48,819 nucleotides of DNA from Methanolobus sp. (GTDB lineage Archaea; Halobacteriota; Methanosarcinia; Methanosarcinales; Methanosarcinaceae). A model generated the notes under the pieces. It was not told where the DNA came from, did no database searches, and saw only the letters and a program-made list of their open reading frames with translations. Where the stretch lies: the NCBI RefSeq assembly GCF_016278365.1, contig NZ_JADQBZ010000004.1, positions 237,723-286,541 of the forward strand, given 5' to 3'. The position numbers and the translations under genes are program-made. Below, one piece after another: positions 1 to 4,714 of this stretch (its first letter is position 1; every line of letters begins with the position of its first letter).

Positions 1-78
1 CCTCAGTCTGGTTCATGTCCTCAGTCTGGTTCATGTCCTCAGTCTGGTTCATGTCTTCAGTCTGGTTCATGTCCTCTT
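1..78 (-). repeat. 18-bp in-frame tandem repeat (MNQTED units)
   Basis: At least four copies of an 18-bp unit, read on the minus strand as GAC ATG AAC CAG ACT GAG, form the start of the C-terminal tail of the partial surface protein and continue beyond the left edge. Each unit holds one Asn-Gln-Thr glycosylation sequon. One copy differs by a single base (tcttcag instead of tcctcag). Because the unit is a multiple of three, copy-number change would keep the frame. Confidence 0.9.
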
Positions 79-1528
79 CTTTTACGAACATGGTCTGGCC
101 TGTCTCGTTGTCTGTTATTTCAGTCCAGTTGCCATTCTCATCGCTTACATGGCTTATCTGGTCTGCAGGCACGTTGATCATGACGCTACTGATTGAAGCA
201 TTCGGGAAAGTTTCCGTAGTATTATCTGTCAGTTCTATATTTGCGAAGTAGGGTGAAGTCTGGTTATTCACGAGCATTGTAGCATTCAGCTGGCCGTCAT
301 ATTGGCTCTTCTCTGGCTGGACGACATTCAGATAACAAGCTGTAATTCCTTCTCCCTGACAGGTTATCCAGGCCATGTCGTCTCCCGCATCACCGATGTT
401 CTCGACAAGTGCTGCGATAGCATATCCCTGTTCATTCACCGGAGTGGTGCCATCCCATTCATCCGTATATGTGATAGTTATCGGACCGCTTGCATTTCCA
501 GTTTCTGACATTGTAATCTCAGTCTGGAAATCTCCGAAATCATGTTCCACTTCATCACTCATCATTGCAATGATCGTTATCAGAAACTCTCCGAAGGGCA
601 TCTCATTTGTTTCATTTTCCTCTATTTCTGTAAATTCAAGCTCATTTCCTTCGGCATCCGTCACGTTCTCTATGAGTTCCATAGGTGCATTGACCTGGAT
701 CTTGCTGATCTGAGCATCCTGGAATGCCTCAAAGGTGTCATTTGTAAGCTCTATTTCGGCAGTTTTTGACTCATTATCAATCATCACACTTGCATTGAGC
801 TGTCCTTCATATTCACTCTTGTCTTCCTGAACAATATTCAAATAGCAGTCAGCTTCGGCAGTGGTCTCGTTGTCTGGAACCGTTTCATTGTCATCAACTA
901 TTATTATAGTCTCATTGTCAACTGTTTCGTTATCATCAATGATTGTCTCATTGTCAGTTACTGTCTCGTTCCCATCGGCAGGAGTTTCATCAACAGGGGT
1001 CTCCTCATCACAGAATCCGAGAGTCACCCATGCATTATCATCACTATTTTCTCCGATGTTACTAATCTCAGTTGCTATGAGATATCCTGCATCATTCCTT
1101 GGGAATGACTGATCCCACGTGTCAACCAGATTTATAGTGATTGTAGTTGTAGGATTAATTTCGGCATCGTCGCCTGGTTCAATGCTGGTGTTGAAAGTTC
1201 CAAGGTTTTCTGCTTCTTCGCTAACCTCATTTACTTCCCATTCATTCCCTTCGGAATCAGTTGCGCTTTCTATCTGATCGGCAGGAATATTGAGCAGTAT
1301 GGTTTCAACTACCGCATCAGGTTGAAGGGCCTGGGTTTCATCTGTCAGCATCATCTCAGCTGTATATGGGGCTGATGTTGATACATCCAAACTTAGATTT
1401 AATTGTCCCTCGTACTCGTCTTCCTGAACATCATTTAGATAGCATGCCGCACTGGTAATCCCGATTGACAGGAATACCATAACAGCAGTTATTAACGCTA
1501 TTCTTAACCTCGAATCATTCATTTTCAT
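1..1528 (-). CDS. Secreted modular repeat protein, partial (runs off left edge)
   Basis: The minus-strand frame is open from an ATG at 1528 to the window edge, about 509 codons. The start is set by AGGTGG six bases upstream (1535-1540). Residues 1-28 are a Sec-type signal peptide. Three copies of a module of roughly 130-170 residues follow. Each opens with CYLN-[DI/V]-V, a short acidic stretch and a [Y]-[EDG]-G-QLN motif, then carries PYTAEI/M-like and NVPADQI-like segments; the first ends in AWVTLGFC. The first linker is rich in DNETV repeats. The tail is a run of MNQTED hexapeptides that continues past the edge. Asn-x-Thr sequons are frequent, so it is probably a glycosylated cell-surface protein. 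It is a clear paralogue of the gene at 1988-3913. I do not recognise the module. The C-terminal anchor, if any, lies outside the window. Confidence 0.85.
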   Translation of the reverse strand, partial: MKMNDSRLRIALITAVMVFLSIGITSAACYLNDVQEDEYEGQLNLSLDVSTSAPYTAEMMLTDETQALQPDAVVETILLNIPADQIESATDSEGNEWEVNEVSEEAENLGTFNTSIEPGDDAEINPTTTITINLVDTWDQSFPRNDAGYLIATEISNIGENSDDNAWVTLGFCDEETPVDETPADGNETVTDNETIIDDNETVDNETIIIVDDNETVPDNETTAEADCYLNIVQEDKSEYEGQLNASVMIDNESKTAEIELTNDTFEAFQDAQISKIQVNAPMELIENVTDAEGNELEFTEIEENETNEMPFGEFLITIIAMMSDEVEHDFGDFQTEITMSETGNASGPITITYTDEWDGTTPVNEQGYAIAALVENIGDAGDDMAWITCQGEGITACYLNVVQPEKSQYDGQLNATMLVNNQTSPYFANIELTDNTTETFPNASISSVMINVPADQISHVSDENGNWTEITDNETGQTMFVKEEDMNQTEDMNQTEDMNQTEDMNQTE

Positions 1529-1987: not shown

Positions 1988-3913
1988 TCATGCACTATTT
2001 TCTTCAACTATGGCATTGTCCTCTGTGGCATTGTCCTCTGTAACATTGTCCTCTGTGACATTGTCCTCTGTGGCATTGTCCTCTGTAACATTGTCCTCTG
2101 TGACATTGTCCTCTGTAACATTGTCCTCTGTGACATTGTCCTCTGTAACATTGTCCTCTGTGACATTGTCCTCTGTAACATTGTCCTCTGTGACATTGTC
2201 CTCTGTAACATTGTCCTCTGTGACATTGTCCTCTGTAACATTTGATGCTTCACAGAATCCAAGGGTTACCCATGCACTGTCATTTCCCATCTCTCCAATA
2301 TTCTGGAAATCAACAGAGATTACATATCCTTCCTCATTTGCAGGAAGTGTGCCGTTCCATGTCTCATTGAGGTAGATTGTTATGGGACCTGAGTCTGTTG
2401 TATTGTTGCTCTCGTCCGCTTCGAATCTCTCTATCACCGTTCTATTATCGTTCAAGTCTACCAGTGACCAGTTCCCGTATGAGGCTGTCACATTATCTAT
2501 CTGGTCTACAGGAATGTTGAACAGGATAGTCTCGATGGTAGTGTTCGGGAACATTTCCAGAGTTTCGTTTGTGAGCTCGATCTCAATGAAATATGGTGCT
2601 GTTTCATTGCTGACCATCATAGTTGCATTGAGGTTACCCTCATACTCGCTCTTGTTGTCCTCTACATCATTGATATAGCACAGGGTCGCCATGTCTTCTA
2701 CTGGTGGTTCTTCCACTGGCGGCTCCTCAACCGGTGGCTCTTCAACAAGCTCTTCTGCCTCGCAGAAACCAAGTGTCACCCATGCACTGTCATCTCCCAT
2801 CTCTCCAATATCTTCGATGTTTGCAGCTATCACATACTCATCCTCATTCGCTGGGAATGTACCATTCCAACTGTCGTCGAAGTATATTGTGACAGGACCT
2901 GTTGCATTGCTGTCGGTTTCATTGATGGTTATTTTTGTAGTGAACTGGCCGAACGGGTTCATCATATCCTCACCCATGGTGAGCATTGTAGTGAAATTAC
3001 CGAATGGATTTGGCTCTTCTTCCACTATCTCCGTTATTTCCCACTCGTTCCCAAGTGTATCGTTTGCATTGACTATCTCATCCGCTGGCACATTCAGCAC
3101 TATGGTCGTTAATGTTGCATTCGGGAATGTTTCCTGAGTGTCATTCGTCAGTTCGATCTCAGCCGTGTAGGGCGTAGTTTCATTATTGACGATCATTGTA
3201 GCGTTCAGATCACCATCATACTGTGTCTTGTTCTCTTCAACAATGTTCAGGTAGCATGTCGTTACATTGGTAACGTTGGTGACATTATCCGCAGGAGGGG
3301 TTACATTTCCATCTGTATCGTTGTCTCCTGGTGTTACATTACCGTCAGTGGCATTATCCACTGGAGGAGTTACATTTCCATCGGTGACGTTATCGTCTGT
3401 GACATTTTCATCGCAGAATCCAAGGGTTACCCATGCGCTGTCATTTCCAGCATCTCCTATGTTCTCGATGTCGACTGCTATCACATATCCTTCATCATTA
3501 GCCGGGAATGTGCCGTTCCAGCTATCATTGAAGTTAATGGTTACAGGACCACTTATGTTCTCTGCATTCTCGTCGATCTCAGCCATGACAACTGTATTTG
3601 TCTGGCCTTGTTCATCTATCTCTGCTATTGACCAGTTCCCGGCTTCACTGCTTGCACTCTCTATCTGGTCTGCAGGGACGTTCAATAGAATAGTGGTCAT
3701 AGTAGCGTTCGGGAACACCTCCAGAGTTTCATTGCTCAGCTCGATCTCAGCTGAGTATGGTGTGGTCTGGTTGTTTATGGTCATTGTTGCGTTGAGGTCG
3801 CCATCATACTGGCTCTTATTTTCCTCAACTTCATTTATATAGCATGCCGCATTCGCAGACCCTATGGAAAGGATTGCAATTGCAACAGCTAAAAGCAATA
3901 TTCTTTGTTTCAC
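1988..3913 (-). CDS. Secreted three-module repeat protein with Asn-x-Thr sequon tail
   Basis: 641 residues with a GTG start preceded by GGGGTGGTA (about 3919-3927). Residues 1-22 are a signal peptide ending SANA. Three modules of about 145-165 residues each begin C-Y-[IL]-N-x-V-E and end AWVTLGFC. Three different low-complexity linkers separate them: DGNVTPP-like repeats, (VEEPP)3, and a C-terminal tail of NVTED pentapeptides with 15 consecutive N-[VA]-T sequons at an exact five-residue spacing. The protein is very acidic, and no PEF-CTERM or transmembrane anchor is visible at its end (EENSA). Two cysteines bracket each module, which suggests one disulfide per domain. It is probably a heavily N-glycosylated surface or released protein. 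It is paralogous to the partial gene at 1-1528 in the same orientation. Function unknown. Confidence 0.88.
   Translation of the reverse strand: MKQRILLLAVAIAILSIGSANAACYINEVEENKSQYDGDLNATMTINNQTTPYSAEIELSNETLEVFPNATMTTILLNVPADQIESASSEAGNWSIAEIDEQGQTNTVVMAEIDENAENISGPVTINFNDSWNGTFPANDEGYVIAVDIENIGDAGNDSAWVTLGFCDENVTDDNVTDGNVTPPVDNATDGNVTPGDNDTDGNVTPPADNVTNVTNVTTCYLNIVEENKTQYDGDLNATMIVNNETTPYTAEIELTNDTQETFPNATLTTIVLNVPADEIVNANDTLGNEWEITEIVEEEPNPFGNFTTMLTMGEDMMNPFGQFTTKITINETDSNATGPVTIYFDDSWNGTFPANEDEYVIAANIEDIGEMGDDSAWVTLGFCEAEELVEEPPVEEPPVEEPPVEDMATLCYINDVEDNKSEYEGNLNATMMVSNETAPYFIEIELTNETLEMFPNTTIETILFNIPVDQIDNVTASYGNWSLVDLNDNRTVIERFEADESNNTTDSGPITIYLNETWNGTLPANEEGYVISVDFQNIGEMGNDSAWVTLGFCEASNVTEDNVTEDNVTEDNVTEDNVTEDNVTEDNVTEDNVTEDNVTEDNVTEDNVTEDNATEDNVTEDNVTEDNATEDNAIVEENSA
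2011..2243 (-). repeat. 15-bp coding minisatellite with 30-bp higher-order period
   Basis: This tract encodes the NVTED tail of the surface protein. The unit reads GAC AAT GTN ACA GAG on the minus strand. In 2101-2240 the Val codon alternates strictly between GTT and GTC, so the true repeat unit is 30 bp, which indicates recent expansion of a two-unit block. Two units near the C-terminus carry GCC (Ala) instead of Val. All units stay in frame. Confidence 0.92.
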
Positions 3914-4192: not shown

Positions 4193-4714
4193 TTACTCCT
4201 TTCTTCGCTGGAAGAAGAATGCCAGACCAAGGATTGCTGCTATTGGGAGCGCAACGGTCGGGAACTCTGGGATTTCTTCTATGCCACCGTTACCATTGTC
4301 CTCATTGAAGCAGAACGTGACGTGGCTGATATCTGCTTGCTGCCCACCCTGATTGAGTGGAGCAATGAGCCCGGAATCACTGGTCGCATTGTCATAATAA
4401 TAAACGTTAGCACTAGAGCCACCAACAACTATGACCGCACACACAGGGTATTCTGACTCCCAGTCAAAATCCTTCAGATCGCTGTTGGAGATATTAATAG
4501 TATTACCGCCACCAACATCATATTCACCGCTAGGAATTGATTCACCCCAGTCATCAAATTTATATGCAAATTCTCCACATCCACCAGCTTGCTGGCACTC
4601 GTCTTCGGCGTTGCCAGATTGCCAATTACCGAAATAGACCGGGGCAACACTTGCTGCCATGGCCAATGGCATAGCTACCATCAATACAAGCAAAGCTACT
4701 AATATTCTTCTCAT
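4193..4714 (-). CDS. PEF-CTERM sorted surface protein
   Basis: 173 residues. Residues 1-20 form a signal peptide (MRRILVALLVLMVAMPLAMA). The middle is a small acidic, Gly/Asn-rich extracellular domain with cysteine-containing segments (ECQQAGGCGEF, YPVCAV, VTFCFNED). Residues about 148-173 are a tripartite sorting signal: IPEFP, a hydrophobic stretch, and a basic FFFQRRKE end. This fits the PEF-CTERM signal recognised by archaeosortases in Methanosarcinales, so the protein should be cleaved and anchored to a lipid at the cell surface. The start has GGTGGTA about seven bases upstream, nearly the same element as the two surface genes to its left. The role of the extracellular domain is unknown. 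No archaeosortase gene lies in the window. Confidence 0.85.
   Translation of the reverse strand: MRRILVALLVLMVAMPLAMAASVAPVYFGNWQSGNAEDECQQAGGCGEFAYKFDDWGESIPSGEYDVGGGNTINISNSDLKDFDWESEYPVCAVIVVGGSSANVYYYDNATSDSGLIAPLNQGGQQADISHVTFCFNEDNGNGGIEEIPEFPTVALPIAAILGLAFFFQRRKE

Follow-up and report, generated by a model that had tools for sequence, protein, structure and literature searches.

The window, a 48,819-nucleotide stretch of one contig from a Methanolobus draft assembly, carries on its minus strand a gene for a 641-aa protein that begins with GTG and is built of three copies of one domain, each roughly 143-165 aa and delimited by the conserved ends CY[LI]N...W[VI]TLGFC, joined by low-complexity linkers and ending in a repeat tail (Table 1). 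Judged by eye, the hydrophobic first 22 residues make up a probable signal peptide, such that the protein would be secreted. Scans against Pfam and NCBIfam gave no family above cut-off and no S-layer domain match for the 641-aa protein, with the fasciclin domain PF02469 unmatched in Pfam and no C-terminal sorting signal (PEF-CTERM or PGF-CTERM) matched in NCBIfam. An AlphaFold2 model of domain copy 3 is mainly beta (mean pLDDT 83.2, pTM 0.79) and weakly resembles many beta-sandwich proteins, the best Foldseek match being ClfA (E 2.8e-3, with no match at E <= 0.001) and the best VIA score Z 7.8. Many of these matches are to the diphtheria toxin beta-sandwich domain with middling scores, and they are not taken as kinship because Z < 8 lies within the range of common arrangements. 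The next gene, at 4193-4714 on the minus strand, encodes a PEF-CTERM protein (42.5 bits, cut-off 23), and its counterpart in the related genome G026 (L038 5805-6359) keeps both ends with a middle that is, by eye, strongly different.

Table 1. Coordinates of the array gene, its parts and the adjacent paralog (positions in the window)
Feature	Position	Strand	Description	Basis
Adjacent paralog	1..1527	-	Runs off the window; 18-bp sequon array (N-Q-T-E-D-M)n at 1-76	Repeat listing, comparison
Array gene	1988..3913	-	641 aa, GTG start; three domain copies, low-complexity linkers, repeat tail	ORF
Domain copy 1	3413..3844	-		Conserved ends
Linker 1	3257..3412	-	52 aa, 10 sequons, no K/R	Ortholog comparison
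Domain copy 2	2762..3256	-		Conserved ends
Linker 2	2681..2761	-	27 aa, acidic-proline (EEPPV)n, no sequon	Repeat listing and ortholog comparison
Domain copy 3	2252..2680	-		AlphaFold2 model
Sequon array	2018..2242	-	15 units x 15 bp, N-(V/A)-T-E-D, 15 sequons	
Units 1-11	2078..2242	-	Perfect GTT/GTC alternation, 30-bp higher-order unit	Unit order
Units 10-15	2018..2107	-	GTC-GTT-GCC block twice, 45-bp higher-order step	Unit order
Tail end after the array	1991..2017	-	NAIVEENSA; the G026 ortholog ends VIVEENNA	Translation

The array lies in frame within the gene, TRF finding 15.3 copies of a 15-bp unit at 2014-2242 with 92% matches and no indels. The 15 Asn-x-Thr sequons spaced exactly five residues apart that the earlier note had described are present as claimed, the first at residue 558 and the last at residue 628, followed by a sixteenth unit, N-A-I, that has no sequon. 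An ORF on the plus strand across the array (2010-2375) was set aside as the antisense of a stop-free repeat. With the second codon of each of the 16 units written as A (GTT), B (GTC) or C (GCC), the array reads A B A B A B A B A B A C B A C C. The synonymous GTT/GTC alternation to which the same note had drawn attention is perfect over units 1-11, the chance of this for six A and five B units, given their numbers, being 1/462, and the lag-2 identity over all 16 units was reached by 1.1% of unit-order shuffles (100,000 shuffles). The alternation indicates copying in blocks that each held an even number of units. Units 10-12 and 13-15 each read GTC-GTT-GCC, such that the 3′ end of the array is most simply explained by a three-unit (45-bp) step, the alternative of a substitution with a one-unit shift likewise needing an odd step. 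The idea that blocks of two units were duplicated was thus right as to the two-unit period of units 1-11 and incomplete as to the three-unit block of units 10-15. The further idea that sequons come and go in pairs is contradicted by the odd total of 15, by the three-unit block and by the homologous arrays of G008 and G014, which have 14 and 11 units in DNA that is 89% identical over 5.4 kb; a switch restricted to two-unit steps is ruled out by the same block and the same odd difference. That changes of length keep the frame, as had also been claimed, follows trivially from a 15-bp unit.

Homologs of the protein were found in 13 of the 60 genomes searched (3 of 22 genera), and all seven loci of relatives found by name belong to Methanolobus. 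A viral origin is unsupported, with 22 stretches of viral contigs matching a pattern and none of them encoding a relative. The closest ortholog is that of G026, a genome in one contig, with flanking DNA 93-95% identical and a locus alignment made of stretches 87-95% identical (95.2% nearest the array, 92.7% on the tRNA-synthetase side). Comparison of the homologous tails, which had been proposed as a check, revealed a clear difference in length between species, with 15 sequons in 87 aa here versus 5 sequons in 43 aa in G026. The second codons of the G026 array run CTT-GCC-GTT-GTC-GAC, each once, and the single GTT-GTC pair may have been the seed of the array studied here. The fourth codon is GAG in all 15 units here versus GAT in the four complete units of G026, which makes it probable that the units became homogenised once the lineages had separated. 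The tails of G006 and G023 have 6 and 7 sequons with other spacing (the G023 ORF being cut by a contig end), while in the orthologs of G021 and G011 a fasciclin domain replaces the tail, in G011 together with a cupredoxin domain, indicating that family members can do without such a tail.

The NQTEDM array of the adjacent paralog (window 1-76, minus strand, and on into L008 1667-2223) comprises four units, a 10-N gap and eight units, with two units in the G026 paralog, and a further array in its tail (MNETEDMETVEETED-like) is split by another 10-N gap. The tail of the G026 paralog includes a fasciclin domain where this genome has only expanded acidic sequon repeats (L008 1650-2225 vs L038 1126-3483), and comparison of the two suggests that the domain seems to have been lost or replaced here.

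Archaeal surface proteins are commonly N-glycosylated. The genome has one AglB-type STT3 oligosaccharyltransferase (PF02516; TIGR04154, 834.5 bits, cut-off 450), and one or more STT3 proteins over the cut-off were found in six of the eight relatives that bear homologs, the two without (G011 and G014) being fragmented or incomplete genomes. The protein has 58 sequons over its whole length, and the 557 aa outside the tail hold 43 of them, whereas 2,000 shuffles averaged 9.9 and never exceeded 20; the mirror motif [ST]-x-N occurs eight times. Sequons outnumbered both the mirror motifs and the shuffle mean in 17 of the 19 family ORFs examined; in the two family ORFs of G005, sequons were not above the mirror counts. 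The six proteins of the window outside the family have 0 to 2 sequons each. Among pentads chosen by residues 3-5 alone, residue 1 was Asn in 137 of 230 (Asn codons 70 and 67), and among those chosen by residues 1, 4 and 5, residue 3 was Thr or Ser in 137 of 177, both counts leaving out the focal array and coming from ORFs that share ancestry and so are not independent. Across the genus, period-5 N/T arrays of four units in the sequon register were present in 6 of 27 genomes, at 71 places, the three remaining N/T registers turning up in 0, 1 and 2 genomes of the same 27. All but two of these places (69/71) lie within this protein family, the others being one in G020 and a simple repeat in G008.

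The explanation favoured here, with moderate confidence in it as a whole, is that of a disordered, acidic, N-glycosylated tail of a secreted protein, recently lengthened through block duplication and acting as a variable spacer or glycan stalk. In this reading, a modular Methanolobus surface protein would be secreted and would carry the array as a C-terminal tail that is disordered and strongly acidic, with AglB the most likely enzyme of its N-glycosylation. The growth of the array would have been recent and within the lineage, from a short seed through in-frame tandem duplication (by slippage or unequal recombination), and would have proceeded by two-unit blocks and, at least once, by an odd step of three units. 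Both the tail and the linkers would be spacers of variable length, and a dense glycan stalk where sequons are present, with selection probably acting on the kind of tail (acidic, with almost no basic residue and often rich in sequons) and loosely on its length, and with no programmed switch.

The linkers bear on the part played by the sequons. At homologous positions in close species, (NVTPGDG)n sequon arrays alternate with sequon-poor (EEPPV)n or DDEEP stretches, and both the acidity and the lack of K and R are kept. At the position of linker 1, G026 and G021 have an acidic linker of 31 aa with 2 sequons, versus 10 here, and linker 2 has no sequon in G000, G026, G021 and G023, 10 in G006 (67 aa) and 6 in G011. 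The six orthologs compared give 18 linkers and tails, each of them acidic and 17 of them lacking both K and R. Sequons are dispensable at homologous linker places (0 in linker 2 versus 10 or 6), which tells against the reading as a glycan stalk, and the exchange of sequon-rich for sequon-free acidic linkers that nearly lack K/R, like the loss of some sequons in one array elsewhere (L099, below), is what would be expected if selection were for a flexible, highly acidic linker (serving solubility, salt or divalent cations) in which N-x-T is one filler and the sequons are incidental. This is considered improbable given that within the genus the sequon register prevails over the other three N/T registers and that sequons outside the tail exceed the shuffle mean more than four times while the mirror motif shows no excess.

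Surface proteins of bacteria and eukaryotes offer well-known examples of coding minisatellites that vary the length of a stalk, and the SD repeats of staphylococcal adhesins are O-glycosylated. The earlier note had stated that no archaeal system is known to use repeat-number variation in this way. A partial search of the literature, which is no proof that none has been published, found no title or abstract on N-x-T tandem arrays in archaea; one report that shares several terms (PMC10266531) concerns, in its accessible part, Ig-domain repeats. The statement is too broad with respect to Borg elements of Methanoperedens, for which the available portion of the report (PMC9879509) describes in-frame tandem repeats that are enriched in extracellular proteins, vary in unit number within a population and have glycosylation sites discussed as a possible role. 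Borg repeats are the nearest described case, sharing with the array an archaeal setting, an in-frame repeat, recent formation and a unit number that differs between close relatives. They differ in being extrachromosomal and, as far as that portion of the report describes, virtually absent in host genomes (PMC9879509), whereas the array lies on a contig that also has housekeeping genes (aminoacyl-tRNA synthetases and a ribosomal protein, named by eye). Their units, as described there, are P/T/S-rich or polyampholyte and not N-x-T (PMC9879509), whereas the array belongs to a family saturated with sequons. The SD repeats of ClfA, in the part of the account available (PMC3324548), resemble the array as a coding minisatellite of a surface protein that is acidic, of low complexity and unstable in copy number with the frame preserved, but are bacterial with another unit, and no sequence relation is claimed. 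Within the same order, Methanosarcina S-layer proteins stain as glycoproteins according to the accessible text (PMC3361143), whereas the protein studied here has no S-layer domain match. What is distinctive here is that the repeat unit is itself the N-glycosylation sequon, such that if occupancy and variation within a species hold true, the repeat number would set the glycan load directly.

That slippage varies the unit number within a population such that glycan load or stalk length differs, the array acting as a contingency locus, is judged unlikely. The near-identical units and their block periodicity are signs of recent turnover, tail lengths differ among orthologs, and the arrays of the adjacent paralog are also long in this genome (4 + 8 NQTEDM units vs 2 in G026), in keeping with the within-population variation described for Borg repeats (PMC9879509) and the instability described for staphylococcal SD repeats (PMC3324548), as far as the available parts of these two reports go. 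The length differences are, however, known between species, with one genome per species, and drift alone would give them.

Unit counts for this genome must be taken as provisional because, in a draft assembly of 19 contigs, the arrays of the neighbouring paralog are broken by two 10-N gaps, the first base of the window directly following one of them. That the 229-bp near-identical array was collapsed or expanded in assembly, with a true count other than 15, is very unlikely, such repeat errors being a known problem according to the accessible part of one report (PMC6868369) and the draft state and gaps (one just outside the window) favouring it, but the array itself having no gap or frame break and arrays of the same sort occurring in single-contig genomes (14 units in G008, 5 sequons in G026).

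Across the class, period-5 sequon arrays of six units were found in 41 of 237 genomes versus 28 of 237 for the mirror-spaced register, which served as the class-wide control (the remaining two registers being counted in the genus only), a modest excess (exact McNemar p 0.041). With genera g7 and g11 left out, an exclusion chosen after seeing the tables, the same test gave p 0.006, and by subtraction these two genera alone show no sequon-register excess (18 vs 20 genomes). From the matches listed, 20 array loci outside the genus were hand-picked, five of which were scanned against Pfam and two against NCBIfam. A crude scan identified a hydrophobic N-terminal segment in seven of the 20 (L100, L101, L107, L108, L109, L111, L112), with the start unresolved in five fasciclin ORFs. 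Four of the 20 are weak cases, L114 and L116 having no hydrophobic N-terminus, L115 being a 72-residue frame beside Ns and L118 lying at a contig end. The hosts outside the genus include fasciclin/DUF4430, DUF3344, PKD/beta-propeller, NosD-like and PGF-CTERM proteins, and since arrays occur in several unrelated protein families, the array studied here belongs to a type that recurs. It is possible, though doubtful, that in Methanosarcinia pentad N-x-T minisatellites arise recurrently and independently in unrelated secreted proteins, growing by block duplication as evolvable glycan stalks whose length and glycan load vary fast, possibly within populations. If occupancy and variation within a species hold true, the spread of such arrays over methanogens would open the role of archaeal surface glycan density to testing with simple length variants.

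The fasciclin/DUF4430 array proteins of g7, another genus of the same family, are represented by five orthologs, one of which was scanned against Pfam. Their NQTDG linker arrays are like the array studied here in having 15-bp sequon units, partly in two-unit alternation, with 29, 7, 7, 8 and 8 units in the first runs, the last of which resumes after a DQT unit; they differ in belonging to another protein family and in being internal, the array here being C-terminal. A two-unit order is also seen in L117 (AABABABC), L108 (ABABCDE) and part of L099. In the NQTDG array of L099 (G159), six of 29 units read NQIDG, the sequon being lost each time through an identical ACA to ATA change, which was apparently copied along with blocks. 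In another genus, a short, probable lipoprotein (lipobox by eye; L100 2972-3406) ends in an NVTDE array of eight sequon units, a tail much like the one studied here and with no visible relation to it.
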